This document shows, piece by piece, positions 2,003 through 60,599 of a stretch of 64,000 nucleotides of DNA. The notes beneath the pieces are model-generated. The model did not search any database. It was given only the letters and a program-made list of their open reading frames with translations, and was not told where the DNA came from. How positions within the stretch are numbered: position 1 is the first letter of the stretch; every line of letters starts with the position of its first letter. Origin of the DNA: Hoplostethus atlanticus (lineage: Eukaryota; Chordata; Actinopteri; Trachichthyiformes; Trachichthyidae); contig JAXDDX010000007.1 of NCBI GenBank assembly GCA_034670405.1, positions 2,446,501 to 2,510,500 on the forward strand, written 5' to 3'. A program made the translations under genes and the position numbers.

Positions 2003-23796
<21,794 letters not shown>

Positions 23797-30650: not shown

Positions 30651-30719
30651 TTATGTTGCATAGTGGTCAAAGCTCCCCAGGTACTCCAGACTGGCCCGGT
30701 AGCAGAACTGATACTGGTC
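30651..30719 (-). CDS. ptprd: ptprd last exon, end of D2
   Basis: 23 codons: [20 protein letters not shown], then A, T and TAA. This C terminus is shared by all LAR-family receptors. Acceptor CTCCAG. Confidence 0.96.
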
Positions 30720-31658
30720 CTGGAGGGAGACAGAACGATAACATGAGAGAGAGAGGAGACACAGAGAGACTGAGACAGACAGAAAAGATGGGAGTGTTTG
30801 TGTGAAAGAGAGAGAGAGAGAGAGAGAGATTGATAACAGAAGAGTAAAACAAGGGAAGCTGTCTCACCTCTGTCTGAACGGTGGCAGGTCTCTGGGTGCG
30901 CAGCATCTTGACGGTCTGGAAGATGTCCACCACTCCCTCGTACCTCATCCTCTCCAGCACGATGCTGAGGGTGATGAACACCCCGGTCCTCCCTACTCCA
31001 GCACTGGACAGGTGGAAGCAGGAAAATAGTTAGACTAGTGCATCGATCACAGTACGTTGAAATATAGTTGTGGGGGAAGGAATAGGTCTTACCTGCAGTG
31101 CACAGGTAATTGGCCCATCCTGGCCAAACTGCTCTTTAGTTTTGTGCACCTGGCCAATGAAATCAATGAATCCCTCCCCTGACTTTGGCACTCCTTGTTC
31201 TGGCCAATCAGTGAACTGGAACTGACGAACTGTCCGCGATTGGCCATCCTGGAGGAATAGGAGTGTGTTTTTTCCAGAAATAATTTTCATGCAAAGGATA
31301 CACACACACACTGATATACACACACACACACACACTGATACACAAAGCGGTGACTCACCCTGGCGTCGGTGACTTTGAACTCTCGGAGGATGTACTGGGG
31401 CATGTTGTACTCGGCCATGGGGTCCACTACAAAGTACTGGTACCTGGCTGAGCGCTCTGCAGGCCAGTACTGGTGGCACTTCTCCTGCAAGGGGGACGAG
31501 GGACGGGACACACACTCTGTCAAGAGTTGTACTACACCGCCGAGAGGTGAAGCGCGGCAAGCGGAACGATGTCTGGCTACTATGTCATGAAAATGTGATA
31601 CCAGTTGTAGTTAGTCTCGCGCCAGATGAGATATGAGACTCATGAGAAAGAACTCATA

Positions 31659-31709
<51 letters not shown>

Positions 31710-34700
31710 GTGCTCTGTGCATTTTTCAAAGCTCCACAATGCATACAGTTGTATCGTAGTATATTCTGCGATGATACTGTTACAGTACATGCTTAGCAAA
31801 CATGATGATGTAATAAAAATTGGATGTATTCCAGTCAGTGTTGTCCTCCGTCGATATGATGGAGGTGAAGAAATGATTTTACTCAGTACCGTCCAGGGTG
31901 TCAGTCTGTAAAAATCTGCCTCAGCTGCAACCCACCGAAAACAATTTCAGTGCTGTTTCAGAGGCCTTTCCACACTTTTACTCCACAATTGTTTGGCATT
32001 TTTCAACATGAAGATGGTCAAATTCAACAATATTGAATTTCGCCACTAAATATCAGCTATCGGCAATACAAAAATCCCCAAACCCAAATCAGTCGAACCC
32101 TAGTTGTAATCATATTTGGTGCGCTTACTCCTGTCCACTGCTATAGCTCTGTGAGCAGCTCATGTTACCAATACCAACTTCCAGTGGGCCATCCATCCTA
32201 ACAGGTATGCCCCAAAAGTATGACTACAATGGTGTGTCTGTGTGTGTGTGTGTGTGTGTGTGTCTGACGTACCCGTCCCATCTCTCTCAGTTTGGTTAGC
32301 ATGACTACGATGGTGGAGTTGTGTTCCCACAGCATCCTCCAATAGTCCTCTGTGGTCTCAGCCAGTGGGCCTTGGGTTGCTATGTAGGCCTTCTGCTGCC
32401 TACACACACACACACACACACACACACCAGGAATGGATTATACATATATGTATGTTTAATAATGTATCTTCCAGAATAAATGATAAGTACATTTTAATAA
32501 TTGATTCATCTTAAATACACATAACAGAATATGAAATATTAAATTGTTTGATGTCATTGATACATTAAGGCCATTATTGAACACTGCAAGCGCTGCAGAA
32601 TCAATCTATCCCAAAGCTGACAACAGCAACATGGGGTTATGGTGTTTACCATGATTACAGGTGCAGCCGAGTACCATTGGCAGTATTAAAGTGAATTATA
32701 CACTTTGGGTTACCAATGGATGTATACTGACTGAAAGGTTTCTTCAAAGTTATGTACTTGCAACCACATAAGTTGGTATAGTAAGGCTAGCCATGCTTTA
32801 TGGGAATCATCATTAGTTGGATGATAGTGTTTGACCAATCAGATTGCTTGGCTGAAAATAACTTCATAATATATAATCTTTATATATTTTCCACAAATTA
32901 AAATGAAACAAAAAGGCAACCGGGAAAAAAAAAAAAAAAGAAATGTGTACAAATAAGGTTCTTGCTGACCTGTATCCATCGATGAAGCTGGCGTTGATAT
33001 AGTCTGATCCCTCCACCCCTCTGATTGGCTGCAGACAGACACGCGTGGTCTCATAGGGCATGATGTTCACCAGGCGGTTCTTGAACTTGTTACATGGCAG
33101 GTTGGCACTCACAAACCGTGAGGTGTGGGCCTTGGCACTGGCCAGACGCTGGGGGGGGGGAAGAAACGAAGCTTTAATAATATGGTGTTGACCGACGATG
33201 ATGTGGTGGGTTTTATGGACCTCAGGGAAGGACGGAGGGAAGGAAGGAAGGATGGACAAACAGCAGTTCAGACAAACTCATGAACCTTTAAATACGGCTC
33301 TCAGACTGAGATGTGACCATGACTTTGTGTGGGTGTGTTGTTGAGACTAACATTCCAACCTTTACCACATTCAAATGCATGTAACACGAGGCTTGGTTTT
33401 CCTCGGGCAGACAATTAGAAACTAACTGGGCAGACATCGAGACATTTTCTTCAATTGAATAAACAGAGGCAGAAGGGGGGTAGAAAAAGTGGGAGCCATA
33501 GGGTGAAGAGGGCAGCAGAGGGGATCGAGGGAGGGAGTACAATAAACTGAAGGAGAGGAGGAAGAGGAAACTGGATTGGAGGGGGGTTGTACAGGAAACC
33601 ACAAGGCCCCATGCTGTCTCAATGCACATATGTGACCCACAGTTGTTCCTGCATCAGTGAAAACCCCAGAACACACAGATTCATATGCATACATGCAGAC
33701 AGGCAGGCACACACACACACACACACACACACACCCTCTGACCATAAGTTGACACGGGTTAAGAAGAAAGACAGAACAACAGAGGCTAGGCGGAGGGAAA
33801 CCGCAGACTCTGGGGAAACAATGGGGTCTCATGAAGCGTCGGTGGCTACGGGAGCGCTGTGGGAGAAACAAGAGTCCCTTATTTTCTTACAGACAGACCG
33901 AGCTGGAAAATCCCACACTGACCGCAGGTTCACCAGTTCATCTGGGTCCTCTGAATCCAGTTTCCAGTGTCAACAATAGTAATTCTTCATGTCTTCGGTT
34001 TGAAATGTTGCTCTGTCTTATCTAGAAAGTCAAAGTCTCTCATTGTTTCCAAGCCGTTATTTTTTTTACGTCATCTGTTAAGCTGGGATGTAATCGTGCC
34101 CTGCTGGAACCTCTTCAAGTGAACTTTCTCCGAAAGGAAACAATAACATGTCTTAATAGGCTGTCGGGTTGCCAAAACGCTGCCAGGAAGGCTTAACTTT
34201 TTCTTGTCATACACACTTCACTTTCTTCGGGGGAATGCGACACCGCTCCTCCAAGAGAAATTCCATCCTTTTGGTGTTTTGTGGACGACGGTGGAAAAGT
34301 GCTGTTTCAGATGACGCTCCAGAAGGTCTCGTAAGTGCTCAGCGGAGACGAGACCCGGTGACTGAGACAACCCTGGCATATGGTTTACATCAATGTAAGG
34401 CTGAGCAAACAATTCAGCGAGCGAGCGGGGGGCATTGTCATTCTGGCGGAGGGGCCGCTCCCATCGGGGAACAGGACCGCTGTAGCGAGGGATGAAGGTG
34501 ATGCGTGCCTTGCCCTCTGAGCGTTTGAGCAGACATGAACCACACCAGGAAAACGTAAGCCACCTGCTTTCAATGCATACTTGTGTATCTTTATCTCAGT
34601 CTTTATTTAACCAGCCAGGTCAGTGGTCTTATTTTCAATGACGGCCTGGAAAGAGGCAAATGTTAAAGTAAAAAAAAACCGAAAGAAAATGAAAAGTAAG

Positions 34701-37700
34701 CTCACTTCGTATCCCTTATTGACTCACGCTTGTCAGTGGAGTTATTCCTAGCTTCGGTGCTCTCCCTTTGAATGTGATCTGCTTCCTAAACCCCCAAGAA
34801 CGCCAACCTGACCTTTCCCCAAGCTTTTGCAAAGTGCAACTTTCTGGCTCATATTACTTTACTTAGCTTTACTTTACCGCCAGTAGTACCTCCAACTCAA
34901 AAGGTCCAATCCCATAATCCCCTGGAATCTACCCATCCACGACTATATGAAACTCTTACAGTCGGACCGAAACTTTGAGAACCTCCGAGGACCCTGAGAA
35001 AAACACTAGGTGATTATCAAGGCCAAGAATTTCAAGTCGATACTTGTGCCCTTCTGGATAAAAATCCTTCCTAAGTCATCTTGGAGAAGACAAACTTCTC
35101 AAGAAAGCGAGCACAGAGAATATCTTTACGGCTTGAGATGGGCTGTGTGCTGGACGTCACGCTATCAATTAAGACACACGACTGTTCGTTTCCCAGCTGG
35201 GAATTTCCCTACAGGGATCAAAAACGTATCACATTACCAAATGATCATCATGAAATGGGTTTCTGGTGGCTTTACGTAGCTCCTTCAGGGACCTGCGATG
35301 GAAACTTTCCTCACCTTGAACTCCAGCTCCATGCCGGTGACGTTCTCCCCCGGTTCGATCTGCGTCAGCCTCTGGATGTAGGAGTACAGGTTCCTGGCGG
35401 GGACCTCGGTATTCCCGCAGGCCACGGCCTCCAGCAGGGCGTCGTGGATGAAGACGTACTGGTCCTCCGTCTGCACCATGTAGTTCCTCTGGGAGCGCAT
35501 CAGCGTCACGTGGCCGTAGATGTCAATGGTCTTCTCGTGCTTGATTCGCTCTGTCATGGCGTCGATCACGATGAAGCAGCCCGTGCGGCCTACTCCAGCA
35601 CTGATGGGAAGAGAGAAGTTAATGTGGACTTCCCATATAACCTGGGGTATGCATTGTGTGTGTGTGTGTGCGTGTGTGTGCCCTAAAATTAAGATTTGGG
35701 ACACATGTTAATCCAGCCCGGTTTGCAAAACTCTGAGATGAGATATTCCAATAATCCCATACCTATTGTCCCTAAACCAACTAAGTATCATAAAGACGCC
35801 AGCCAGCAATATTCCGCACAAAGGACATAATAATTGACATTAGTGATGAGTCTGCAACACCGTCTCACTCGCATTAGGAGGATGTCCGCTCCTATCGACA
35901 CACAATCCTGAAATATAATACATTTAGCTGCCCACCCAAACACATTTCTGCTGCGCTAGTATCTAAATGGTGGAACACCCTGACCAAGCAGGTTTCTGCA
36001 AGTGAATAAAAACTTTCTTTATATGGTTAAATTAATATCAGTGTGTGTGTGTGTGTGTGTGTGCAGGTGCGCGTGCGTGTTGTTCAAGAGGGAATGAAAC
36101 TCCATTGAGTGATACAGGGGCTGGTAGATATGTTAAGGCACATTATGATGGAGTCTCGCCAGGGTAATTTCATTTGACTGATAATCCTGTTAGATATTCC
36201 ATTTGACTGCTAGGAAGATTAGGAAGATCTCCTCTCCTGCCAACCTCTACCCATCTCTCACTCCAACCCATCACTTTTTCTCTCTTGCATTGGCAGTTTT
36301 TTTTTTTTTTTAAAACCCCATTTTCCCTCTCCCATTCCTTCTTCCTTTAAGTCATTATTTCCATTCATGACGTTCCGGGTTTGACCTCACCTTCTCTCTC
36401 ATTCCGCACATATCTCCTCCTCTAGCTCCCCTCAATCATCATCCCTCAGCTTCCCTCCTCTCTCTCTCTCTCTCTGTACATTTATACCTCACTAATTCTC
36501 CCTCTGTATAGTGTTCCAGCGCTCCAGATTCCCTCTCATTCCCTCTATCTTCTCCCCCTCTCCCCCTCTCCCCCTCTCCCATCCCTGGAGAAGAGCAGAT
36601 AGCGGCTCCGTTCCAGCTCAGTGTGCCAGGATTGCGATGACAAGTTTCCAGAATCTTCCTTCCGACCGACGCGTGTGCCTCCTGCTGCTCAAACTGCGGC
36701 TTATTTTCAATATAAACTTATGAACCCAGATCTACCACCCCGCTTAAACGGTAAATAGTCAACAGTTAAAGCTACTTATGGAAAATGGGGTCAGAGTGAT
36801 GGCTGCTGTTGTTGTAAAACTCGGTGGTATCGGAGGTTGTTTCGGGAGGAATGCGAGCGTCTAAGCCAGTGAGAATGGTTTTGGGGTTTCCGTAATGGTA
36901 GGTCAATCTCAATTTCAGTTCGGGACCCGTGAATGATTTTTTATACGGGAGGTCTTGAACTCGTGGAGTTTCAGTTTCAGAGATTCTAAGGTTTATGAAA
37001 ATTACATTGCCAAGTAAAACCCAAAATAACAGTAAGTAAGTGTTTTCATGCATGCTCACAAACACACACAATCAAAGACCAATTTCTATTCGTAGGCCAC
37101 ATTGGATTGTGTCCTTGAGAATTTTGAGGCACATTATGCAGTACTGTTGCAGAGTGAACTAAACTAAACTAAACTAAAAAAGCAACATGAATGAGGCGAT
37201 ACACACACACACACACACCTGCAGTGGACGACCATGGGTCCTGCGTCTGGAGGGTTGCAGGCCTTGACCCTGCGCAGGAAGGACAAGAAGGGTGTGGGGT
37301 GTTCAGGCACCCCGTGGTCCGGCCATGCCGTGAACTGGAAATGACGAACCTCGCGCTTCTCATTGGAGCCACTCTGGAGGAGGAGGCGGGCAGTGTTACC
37401 ATACACACCTGTCTCAACATCGCATCATGCAGGCTGTTGGCTCGCACACATATTTCAGCAGTATAACAGTATATGTGTCCAAGCGGCATGCACCCAGGCT
37501 CACACAAAGGATGCATTTTACACCAGAAAGTCTGATAAAAATGCACTTCTATATCTATGAAACATAAAAAAAATACCTCAACTATAATAATATACTATAC
37601 AACTAATCGCACATGCATGCACGAATAGCAGCATGGACACACAAACACACACAACCTTGTAGAGGGCGAAGGTCCTGACAGAGTAGGTGGCCAGCTCCAC

Positions 37701-40700
37701 CGTGTCCAGCAGAGTGACCTGGATCAGGCCGTAGGTCTCTGTGCCCCGCGTCGGCCAGTACTGATCGCACTTCACCTACAGAGGAGGAGGAGGAGAGGCT
37801 GTGAGAGATGCGGAGCGGTTTCTGTATGTGTGTGTGTGTGTGTGTGTGTGTGCTGTATGTGCCGGTGTGTGAGAGAAACAGAGAGAAAGAGTGAGAGGGC
37901 TGACTTGGGTGCACGTCTACAAAGGTCAAAACCGGGGGTTTTGTTGAAGTGTTGAAACAGATTTGTGAGACAAAAAGTGCCTATAGAGACATCTGTGTGA
38001 ATGTGAAAGGTGTTTTAGTGAGTGTGTGTGTGTGAGAGAGAGAGAGAGAGAAAGAGAGAGACACACACGCATGCTGAAAGTTCTGCTTTCTAAGGTCTGA
38101 GATCCTGCCTAAGCCGTTTCCAATACTAACAACGGTGTGACGTGAATTGAATGTGCAGGTTGGTGGGCTCTCAAAGGCCAATTAGTACCTAATGTTCAGT
38201 CCTCGTGTGTTTGCACACTGCCCTACATTCCAACCCCCCCAAATCCCTACAAAACTGCACACAGCACACCAACTCCCAGCATGCTTAGCCACCGCAATGC
38301 ATTGAATTCCCCCGTATCCTGCAGCCATGTTTGTAGTTCTTTAGCTCGGCCTCAGAGACCAGAGAGGAGAAAAAAATCCCCAATGGAGAGGAAGGGGGAG
38401 GGGGGAGGGGGGCGCGCTGGCTGGCAGAATCAGGCCAAACCAAACGTTATGTGCTGATCCCTCCAGTCCTCAGATCAAAGACAGCGGGGAGCTCAGCTCA
38501 GCTCGCTCTGCATTCCACTGCTCCAGACTGGGGATTATGCGTTTTGGCCTGGGACGCTCGGGCTGTAATTACAGCTTTTCAACTGCCGTTTTCCCATCAG
38601 GCCTTGAGACGCTGTGGGGCTAGTGGGGACTGGAATGGCTGTCCGCGTAGGGGGGCCCCGACCGCTGCCAAATACTCAGCAGGATTGCCGTAAACGCCTG
38701 GAGTGAAGAATAAAATATACATTGATATATCGGCTAATTACATAAGTTGGCCCCGTCTGGGTGTTGGTACGAGTCCAACGCTAGAGCCATAGACTATATA
38801 TATATCATCTGAGTCTAGAATGGGTAAAGGCATAATGTTAAGTGGTGTTAAATGAGATTAAATAATTTGCCCAAACATACAGCCCACTACCTCCGCACAG
38901 ATATGGAGGTAGTGGGCTGGCGGATAAAGAACTAAGGGCAGCGCTCTGATTGTTTCATTGTTGTGCAGTTTTATAGCTGTGAAGAATTATATGAATCTCA
39001 GCTGGCATTCATAAAGGAGAGATTCGTCAATTTATGACACAGTAGAGTACCGGTTACATGGTTAGATGGTCTGGAAAGCACTAGCTATTATAGAAGTCCT
39101 CAACCCTGCACTGGCGCTGCATGAGGACTGCAGAGGTTTTCCAAATAATTCCCCCGATAATGCAACAAGCATGTGAAAAGTGGTATTTCTACAATGGCCA
39201 CATCTGTACTGTGTAGCCACAAGAGAAAGAGACAGTTGACGGTGTGATCATGCAAACTGTGGACACGAACGTGCCCCGTTTCTTAACTGTTGTGGTCACA
39301 ACGCAAACCCCCGTTTCAGATCGAGTTATGACCGTAAGTGCCTTGTGGTGAGTTGAAAACAATTCAGCATTCTCTCTCAACGCACTGGCTTTTGGACAGA
39401 AAGAAAAAGGGAGTAAAGCAGAAAAAAAAAAAAAAAAAAAGGTACTGGATAGGAAAAAGCGGTAAGGAGAAAACCGTGTGAGGGGAGGTTGCGTTTCACA
39501 AGGGGATTAGCAAAGGAGAGAAAGAGGGGTCTTGCCTTAGAGAAGAAATAAGAGGGCATCTGAGGGTCAAACAGACACAACAGAGACAGTTGGAAAAGTT
39601 GGAAAAGAGAGTTTTAACACAAAGCTCAGGTTATTAGGAAAAGGAGCACATGAGAGGACAGGATCATTTTCTGAACAGGGCTCTAGATATAATTGGTTAG
39701 CACTTAATCATGATTCACACCTCAAGCAGTACTTGCTCATTTCATTCTGACATGACATTACATGGAATATTTACTCAAGCGTACATTCTGTTAACCAGCG
39801 AAATGCCTCGAAGCAAAAAGGGTTTCTAATTCATTACCACTCACTCCAGCTTAGTTGTAATTGTAATCCCCCACAGTATCCCTCTATATTCTATTGTATT
39901 CTATTCTATTGTATTCTATTCTATCCTATCGATCTACTACATTATCCTGACCACCACCCAGTCTCCTCAGTGCTATCTCTACCTCGTCAGTCTTAGCCAT
40001 GACTCCTTTTAGCTTGGTCATCATAATGATAACGATGTTGGCTGCATTTAGGTTTAAGCAGTACTACATGTCCTGTCCTGTCGGTCCGGTCCGGTCCTGT
40101 CCGGTCCGGTCCTGTCCAGTCTGTGCTGTCCTGTCCTGTCCTATCTTGTCCTATCCTGTCCTGTCCTATCTTGTACTGTCCTGTCCTGTCCTGTCCTGTC
40201 CTATCTTGTCCTGTCCTGTCCGGTCCTGTCCAGTCTGTGCTGTCCTGTCCTGTCCTATCTTGTCCTATCCTGTCCTGTCCTATCTTGTACTGTCCTGTCC
40301 TGTCCTGTCCTATCTTGTCCTGTCCTGTCCGGTCCTGTCCAGTCTGTGCTGTCCTGTCCTGTCCTATCTTGTCCTATCCTGTCCTGTCCTGTCCTGTCCT
40401 ATCTTGTCCTGTCCTGTCCGGTCCTGTCCAGTCTGTGCTGTCCTGTCCTGTCCTATCTTGTCCTATCCTATCCTATCCTATCCTATCCTATCCTGTCCTG
40501 TCCTGTCCTGTCCTATCTTGTACTGTCCTCTCCTATCTTGTCCTATCTTGTCCTATCTTGTCCTATCTTGTCCTGTCCTGTCCGGTCCTGTCCTATCTTG
40601 TCCTATCCTATCCTATCCTGTCCTGTCCTATCTTGTCCTGTCCTATCCTGTCCTATCCTGACCTGTCCTATCTTGTCCTGTCCTATCCTGTCCTGTCCTA

Positions 40701-42181
40701 TCTTGTCCTGTCCTGTCCTATCTTGTCCTGTCCTGTCCTGTCCAGTCCAGTCCAGTCCAGTCCTGTCCTATCCTTGTCCTGTCCTATCTTGTCCTGGCCT
40801 GTCCTGTCCAGTCCAGTCCAGTCCTGTCCTATCTTGTCCTGTCCTATCTTGTCCAGTCCAGTCCTGTCCTGTCCTGTCCTATCCTGTCCTGTCCTCTTCC
40901 GCCCCATTCCTTCTTGTCTTGTGATTTCGGCTGGACCCGTCCTGTCCTGCTACATCCATTCCAACCTAATTTGTCCTGTCCTTTTCATTACACTGCATTC
41001 CAACCAAGCATACTCTACCGTACACTACCCTACTCTCCTCAACTGTACCCTGCTAACCCTACCCTAACCCTCTAACCCTACCCTATCCTTCCATATCCTA
41101 CCCCTACGATACCCCATCTTTCCTATCCTACCCTACTGTACTCTATCCTACCATAACTCTGTCCTACCCTGTCCTACCCTACCCTATGCCACCTCATATA
41201 ATAAGGTCCTTACCAATAACCAGTTCTGGCCCCACCCAAAACCTGAGCTATAATTTTATCCCATCTTTCTGCTCCAGTTTGTCTGTGTGCTGTTCTATCC
41301 TACCTGTCCTACTCCAATTCTCCACCTGCCTCCGTCTTCTATTCTGTCCTACCCGTCTTACCCGTGACTTCTCCTCCAGCTTGGTCATCATGATGATGTT
41401 GGCTGTGTGCTGTTCCCAGACCAGCCTCCAGAAGTCGCAGAAGGTCTCGGGAAGGGAGCCCTGCGTGGCGATGTAGGCGTTCTGACGGCGGTAGCCGTCG
41501 ATATAGTTAGCGTTGATGTAGTCGCTGCCCGGGACACCTGGAGGGAGTGGAGGTTAGGGAGGGTGGAGGGAAAGAGAGGGGTGACAACAGAGAGAGAGAA
41601 GGGTAACAGATGAATCAACTAAATGCTACTGAATGTCTCTGCACTAATCACACGAAAACGTTTCCTTGTGCACGCAATTTACCTTACAGATGAACCTTCT
41701 GATTCCTTCTCATTCACAATGAAATCATCTATATGGATTATTTCAAATATATTGCCGTGCAAGCAGCAGGGCTATGTCCCGGTAATAAAGGGTGAGGATC
41801 ATTTGAGGTCGGGGTAGGGAGCTTACTGTTTTCACAGTGGGCCCAGTGTCCTTTGGTGTTGGATTGTTCAGCCGTCTTGTTTTATAATACATGCTAAGAC
41901 GATCACAGGCCTAATCTGACTATACTCTGGATGTGTCGCTTTGAATGGCAATATGACTGTAAGGCCGTCTCTGTGTAAGACTCAGCTGACACTGCTTGTC
42001 CTGGAGGGGAATTGTGTTGCGTGTGTGTGCACGCGAGCGAGCGTGTGACTGTGTGTACATGCATGTGTGTGTGTGTGTGTGTGTCTGTGTGCGTTTGATT
42101 TAGGATCAGTCCTGCTCATCTGGGGCCTAATACCATAATCCCAAAAATCACTGAGTCACAGCTCAAAAACGCACGCACGCA

Positions 42182-46825: not shown

Positions 46826-47543
46826 TTCCGTCGTCTACCTGGAGTCTGGAAGTTGATTCTGCGTAGCTCCACGGGATCGGTGGGATGGTGGGAGGACATG
46901 GCTTTGCTACAGGGAAAACTGCCCTTCCTGCCCTCAGCCTCAGCCCTTTTCCTGGATCAACACAACAACAACACACACACCCTTTAACCTCTCCACGCAC
47001 CTGACGCCACGGAGGAGTGCATCGTTTCAGTAGATTACCACTTTATGATACGTCTATTGGGATCCATTATGGAAAAAGCCATTCCTACTGATACTGAACA
47101 GCCACTGTGGTAACAGGTAGAGTTTGTTTACCTGTCAGGTTTGCTGGATCCAAACAGAGACAGGAGCACATGGAGGAGGAGATGAAGACAAATAACATTA
47201 GTGCTCAGTCTCAAAGCATCCCCAAACCTCCCTCCCTCTCTCTCTCACCCCTTATCACACTGAACACTTTTACCGCCCCTCTTTCTCTCCCTCCCTCCCT
47301 CCTACCTTGCCTCCATCATTCTGCCCTCACCTTTTGAAGAGGAGAATGGCGATGACGATGCAGACGATGAAGATGACAGCCAGCACAGGCCCCACCACCC
47401 ACAGCAGCCCCTCCTCCTCGTCCACGATTGGCTGAGGGTCCACGTCCGATGAGGTCACGGGGTCGGAGTAGGGGCTAGTGGCGTACATAGTCTAGAGGAA
47501 GACAGGACAGGTGGACAGGTTGGCATAAACTGAATACATAAAC

Positions 47544-59984: not shown

Positions 59985-60599
59985 GGAACAGAGAGGGAAA
60001 CAGCGCCCGAGGAGGTGAGCTGCCTGTCAGATTTGGGGAGAAACACAAGTCTTAACCAGACAATGATTTGTTTTTCCCTCAGAGGTCTAAAGGCTAAGAA
60101 GGGAGGGCAGAGAGATTAATAGCCTGAGTGAAACATTCAACCTCCCTCAATGGATGTGAAGGCGCCCCCCCCCCCCAGTTTGGAACCGTCCTGGTTTATG
60201 ACTTGGTACTAACGGGCTTTATGGCTAAGACATATAACACAGCAGGTTTAATAGCATCGTATCACATTAATATGACAAACATCCATAATAGAAGGTTTTT
60301 TATTCACTATGTCAGTGTAAAAAGCTTAAACGTATGAACAACTTCGGAGAAAAAGCTTTGCCAGTTTGCCAACATCACCGTAACCCTAAAATCGAAGTGC
60401 CGTACTTAAGAGCGGCGGCTCTGAGGGAGCAGGTTGCCAGATTGGTTACTACCCTTACCTCTGACATAGAGGTTAGCCGGGGTGGAGTAGCGCGTCCCAT
60501 CGCTGTTGGTGGCAACGCACTCATATTTCCCCTGGTCGGACTCCTCACTCAGCTCTATCTGGAGGGCACCTGGATGGAGGGATGGAGGATGGGAGCAGA

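Follow-up and report, generated by a model that had tools for sequence, protein, structure and literature searches.

A surplus base in the D2 signature exon of a Hoplostethus atlanticus ptprd gene, probably a residual consensus error

The minus strand of the window (the whole 64,000-nucleotide stretch of Hoplostethus atlanticus contig JAXDDX010000007.1 analysed here) encodes a LAR-type (type IIa) receptor tyrosine phosphatase between ~60.6 and 30.65 kb. Its reading frame is broken once, by a single surplus base in the signature motif of the second phosphatase domain (D2). We consider it highly probable (roughly 0.82) that this base is an insertion error of one base left in the assembly consensus, sitting within a normal, functional ptprd gene, and we infer that the DNA of the sequenced animal lacks it. 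The error would have arisen in the consensus sequence and would leave the gene itself intact. This verdict follows from priors and from conservation: the 31 exons contain a single lesion and undamaged splice sites, and the conservation of the native frame continues unchanged past the break.

Gene model and position of the extra base

The sequence-only reading had named the gene ptprd, and on sequence comparison this appears to be the better name by a moderate margin. For the Ig3–FN1 stretch (194 residues), the top three distinct chains are all PTPRD (4yh7, 404.8 bits; 4yfd, 390.2 bits; 4yfg, 389.8 bits), followed by the PTPRS chain 4pbx (377.6 bits), and it is this ranking of PTPRD above PTPRS that makes ptprd the preferred name. 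These are whole-chain scores that include weak matches of other domains; the main domain of 4yh7 alone scores 357.2 bits. For the cytoplasmic part, the best scores belong to two-domain PTPRS and LAR structures, among listed matches that hold no two-domain PTPRD chain.

The exons were found by hand and spliced by script. The set holds recognisable exons, so optional mini-exons may be missing, and it starts at position 60569, with exons further 5′ outside its scope. The assembled coding part (30651–60569, minus strand, identified by its ectodomain) comprises 31 exons and 5,166 coding bases; all 31 acceptors are AG and all 30 donors are GT. A single open frame runs from 60569, the start of the first exon in the set, up to the D2 signature exon, and is continuous past the transmembrane exon when the juxtamembrane exon (46839–46951, minus strand) is included. 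Between these two exons there is a 12-base micro-exon (47132–47143, minus strand; CAAACCTGACAG) with AG and GT sites, which yields SKPDR across the joints; a PTPRS-like KPDS micro-exon is a possible parallel.

The gene encodes two tandem PTP domains. The first (D1) has an intact signature and is covered by Pfam PF00102 (Y_phosphatase) over its full length (1–234 of 234). On the minus strand, the D1 exon equivalent to the affected one (37219–37373, 155 bases, ending in GPMVVHC) and the D1 exon that follows the signature and carries SAGVGRTG (35315–35600, 286 bases) are both intact, as are the first three exons of D2 (32970–33148, 179 bases; 32273–32399, 127 bases; 31359–31484, 126 bases). The D2 signature exon comes next (31093–31248), followed by an exon of 136 bases (30868–31003) and the last coding exon (30651–30719, 69 bases), which carries the native end SFDHYAT.

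The D2 signature exon extends from a CAG acceptor before 31248 to a GTAAGA donor after 31093 and contains 156 bases where 155 are expected; its coding strand ends in ATTACCTGTGCACTGCAG, followed directly by GTAAGA, so that native residues give way to a shifted CALQ. Both exon lengths had been given in the sequence-only reading, and the spacing of the two domains agrees with them. The exons that lie just after the D1 and D2 signature cysteines start 874 coding bases apart, whereas the AGVGRTG motifs are separated by 291 residues (873 bases) in 5 of 5 two-domain LAR-family chains with printed alignments (three PTPRS and two LAR; motif positions 230/521, 225/516, 218/509, 223/514 and 232/523). 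There is thus one surplus base between the two signatures. Because GPIT is in frame before the break and the native residues that follow are in another frame, the surplus base lies near the end of the exon, within the I-T-V-H-C signature (31104–31106, minus strand). Its exact identity is ambiguous: the string ATTACCTGTGCAC can be derived from ATT ACC GTG by adding a T or from ATT ACT GTG by adding a C, and T31104 is therefore one of three equivalent placements, the others being C31105 and C31106. The earlier claim of an extra T at 31104 stands with respect to the single surplus base, but not to a unique position. No further stop or shift occurs in the 5,166 coding bases, and the other 30 exons are intact. 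Tandem repeats near the D2 signature exon concern introns only.

The D2 domain as written

Read as written, the shifted frame passes through the 136-base exon without a stop and terminates at a TGA in the last exon (30667–30669, minus strand) that begins 16 bases before the native TAA (30653–30651). This confirms the course described in the sequence-only reading, in which the first stop was placed in the last exon a few codons ahead of the normal one. The shifted frame supplies 66 residues in place of the last 71 native residues and ends 5 residues short. As had been predicted, the D2 signature cysteine and the family C terminus are lost: PF00102 covers only 1–173 of 234 on D2, and a Pfam search with the 66-residue shifted tail gives no family at E 0.001. 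A complete D2, with both its HC(X)5R signature and its SFDHYAT end, is not encoded in any one frame as written; both pieces of the domain are present in the native frame on either side of the break. A stop codon in the last exon allows a transcript to escape nonsense-mediated decay, and the escape that had been proposed for this transcript holds given the position of the TGA.

That the shifted frame is open is unremarkable and is no evidence of anything. In the rest of the coding sequence, 283 of 1,582 overlapping 66-codon stretches at the same offset are also free of stops (125 of 1,582 at the other offset), and a 62-codon version at the same offset gives 321 of 1,586. An interpretation of the open frame as a sign of selection was rejected on these counts.

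In mouse PTP-δ numbering, where the pseudocatalytic cysteine of D2 is Cys1440 (PMC6994669), our mapping places the last native residue at Thr1437 and the start of the replaced segment at V1438. The six residues described in that study as contacting liprin-α SAM1/SAM2 (Tyr1373, Leu1380, Arg1397, Phe1399, Phe1430 and Asp1433) all precede the break and, by the same mapping, 6 of 6 are unchanged here. Phe1503, Asp1504 and Tyr1506, whose contacts with the N-terminal helix of liprin have a small effect on binding (PMC6994669), map downstream of the break and fall within the replaced part. The SAM contacts would thus be kept without the remainder of the fold that supports them, and a D2 made as written is expected to be non-functional.

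It had been suggested that loss of D2 might be tolerable because the domain is non-catalytic. The premise holds, but as an argument for tolerance it is weakened by published deletion experiments. Removal of D2 and the C-terminal tail from PTP-δ is reported to abolish presynaptic, synapse-inducing activity in neuron culture (PMC6994669), and deletion of D2 from PTP-σ likewise abolishes synapse induction in culture, as does deletion of D1 (PMC6540616). Phosphatase-dead PTP-σ is described as having no defect in synapse induction (PMC6540616), and earlier phosphatase-dead mutants gave partial recovery, as cited in PMC6994669. As far as these accounts go, D2 is non-catalytic but not dispensable, and its fixed loss would probably be costly. 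The engineered deletions of PTP-δ (delta-D2C) and PTP-σ (PMC6994669, PMC6540616) resemble the product predicted here in that D1 is retained and the D2 fold and C terminus are gone; they differ in that the six liprin-α contacts are still encoded in the present gene, where the change begins at V1438. If the lesion were real, it would offer a natural test of the role of the non-catalytic D2 domain.

Conservation and the origin of the extra base

Before the break, D2 is identical to PTPRS 2fh7 at 185 of 191 positions, to LAR 1lar at 181 of 191 and to PTPRS 3sr9 at 180 of 191. After the break, the native frame retains 63 of 67 identities to 2fh7 and 62 of 67 to 1lar (3sr9 is outside this count). 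The corresponding values for D1 are lower (258/303 for 2fh7, 261/303 for 1lar and 256/303 for 3sr9), so that D2 is the better conserved domain both upstream and downstream of the break. A D2 more conserved than D1 may be general in the LAR family, and the telling point is that the difference holds across the break. Since identity is maintained after the break, no decay is seen downstream of it, and by this comparison full constraint seems to have acted on the downstream part until recently. In the native frame, GC content at the three codon positions is similar on the two sides, with 0.57/0.44/0.77 upstream of the break and 0.55/0.41/0.79 downstream. Together with the deletion experiments on synapse induction (PMC6994669, PMC6540616), the conservation of D2 above D1 on both sides makes a tolerated D2-null allele unlikely.

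The reference comparison also picked out residues that depart from positions where all three references agree, 17 in D1 and 3 in D2. Two of those in D1 are drastic, namely a Gly-to-Cys change (TGC; 41437–41439, minus strand) in ETFGDFW, the segment that reads ETMGDFW in LAR, and a Leu-to-Thr change (ACA; 35552–35554, minus strand) in AMLERIK, which reads AMLERMK in LAR. These could represent divergence, error or relaxed constraint.

A consensus error would be expected to appear as an isolated lesion with no other decay, and this is what is found. Long homopolymers are the commonest site of consensus indel errors, and the extra base lies outside any long homopolymer, which counts against an error of this kind. 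In the Vertebrate Genomes Project, the commonest errors in long-read contigs before polishing are described as short indels that lead to amino-acid frameshifts, at Q30–35, and the residue after polishing is put at one error per 10 kb (PMC8081667). At that rate, ~0.5 errors of all kinds in a 5 kb coding sequence would be ordinary, by our own estimate. The ptprd lesion resembles the residual long-read indels of that report in being a short indel that produces an apparent frameshift in an otherwise intact coding exon, and differs from them in that its site is not a long homopolymer. The sequence-only reading had called an assembly error the simplest explanation; the prior and the conservation now back that view, short of proof. 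If the base is an error, annotation pipelines could label this ptprd as truncated or as a pseudogene, and the correction would be simple.

A second observation that counts against a consensus error is a perfect inverted repeat with 7-bp arms, which extends over the exon end and the splice donor and is complete only with the extra base. The left arm (TTACCTG, 31103–31109, minus strand) holds the extra base, the right arm (CAGGTAA, 31089–31095, minus strand) crosses from the exon end into the donor, and the two are separated by a 7-base loop (31096–31102). When 20,664 single-base insertions were simulated across the exons of this gene, 132 fell inside a repeat with arms of 7 or more bases and a loop of 3–10 bases, and 263 did so with a loop of 3–20 bases (0.6–1.3%). 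As the repeat was noticed after the site had been inspected, this post hoc fraction is not a clean test. Folded as DNA, the strand forms this hairpin with a z score of –1.74, and 10 of 200 shuffled sequences fold equally well or better.

The repeat gives some substance to an unlikely alternative, namely that the base is real and marks a loss-of-function allele, rare or private, for which the sequenced animal is heterozygous and which arose by template switching in a quasi-palindrome at the exon end. Polymerase template switching is known to perfect imperfect inverted repeats (PMC7202029). The ptprd lesion is like the quasi-palindrome mutations of that report in being a frameshift that turns an imperfect inverted repeat into a perfect one; here the arms are just 7 bp and the event is read from sequence alone. 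The post hoc repeat test does not separate errors made by polymerases in vivo from those made in vitro, and library amplification or in vitro polymerases might create the same pattern. The product of such an allele would keep the ectodomain, the transmembrane segment and D1, whereas its D2 would be cut short and followed by 66 foreign residues; the last-exon stop would permit it to be made from transcripts that escape decay. The strong constraint on D2 argues against it. A germline version, in which a hairpin template switch across the donor left a membrane PTP-δ with its ligand-binding ectodomain, D1 and the liprin contacts up to Asp1433 in place and D2 unfolded, is marginally less probable again. 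If true, it would constitute a natural separation-of-function or dominant-negative synaptic receptor.

A human parallel also speaks for a rare allele. We take human PTPRD to have 1,912 residues with the D2 cysteine at position 1844, so that a variant p.S1845Rfs*2 would fall directly after the D2 signature cysteine. Such a variant is listed in a review as one case in an intellectual-disability sequencing study (PMC9900141). On this assumed numbering, both frameshifts lie at the D2 signature, in seemingly near-identical places, the human one apparently adjoining the cysteine. They differ in that the human frame stops after 2 codons and that of ptprd here reads on to the last exon; the human variant comes from a patient, by targeted sequencing (PMC9900141).

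A very unlikely alternative is a fixed lesion in a duplicated fish genome with several copies of ptprd, the present copy either beginning to decay or having turned into a receptor without D2. Teleosts carry extra gene copies, and the 17 departures in D1 against 3 in D2, including the Gly-to-Cys and Leu-to-Thr changes, would suit such a history. Against it stand the intact splice sites and the other 30 intact exons, as well as a D2 that, before and after the break alike, has a higher identity to PTPRS than D1 has, from which it follows that any fixed loss must be recent. Pseudogene decay as such was rejected: in place of several disabling changes or relaxed constraint, the 5,166 coding bases show a single lesion, and D2 matches PTPRS at 185/191 and 63/67 positions, although D1 does have unusual residues relative to the three PTPRS and LAR references. 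A real base rendered harmless by splicing is barely credible and was rejected, as nothing was found in its favour: in a scan of GT donors and AG acceptors up to 60 bases from the two junction ends, phase would be restored by just two sites, a GT lying 37 bases ahead of the donor and an AG located 52 bases inside the next exon, and use of either would delete signature residues.

Relatives of D2 and other features of the window

Sequence searches with the D2 segments found relatives in one case. The 67-residue piece matched 128 pattern stretches in genome contigs, of which 3 are relatives, all from chlamydial metagenome-assembled genomes with 44–47% identity and uninformative on the extra base; the 48-residue piece gave 149 stretches and 0 relatives in the same contigs, and the two pieces gave 11 and 14 stretches, respectively, with 0 relatives in viral contigs. 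A distant blastn search of phages and plasmids with the exon returned no match, and the relatives found for the exon include no vertebrate sequence. The tyrosine-phosphatase-like segments on the three chlamydial contigs (L001–L003; Protochlamydia and Parachlamydia), resembling as they do an animal D2 segment, are possible products of transfer from eukaryotes, or of contamination.

Elsewhere in the window, a single open frame of 683 amino acids on the plus strand (8062–10113) is rich in Ser and Glu, has an acidic run near its end and has no Pfam match at E 0.001; possibly it forms one large exon of a different gene. On the minus strand, a UnaL2 LINE 3′ element lies at 1259–1309 (Rfam, 65.7 bits), and transposase remnants at ~18970–19540 are presumably of the Tc1/mariner family. 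A long tandem repeat of the GGACA/GACAG type occupies ~39990–41000 on the same strand, with several frames open and GGACA occurring 97 times in 1,011 bases.
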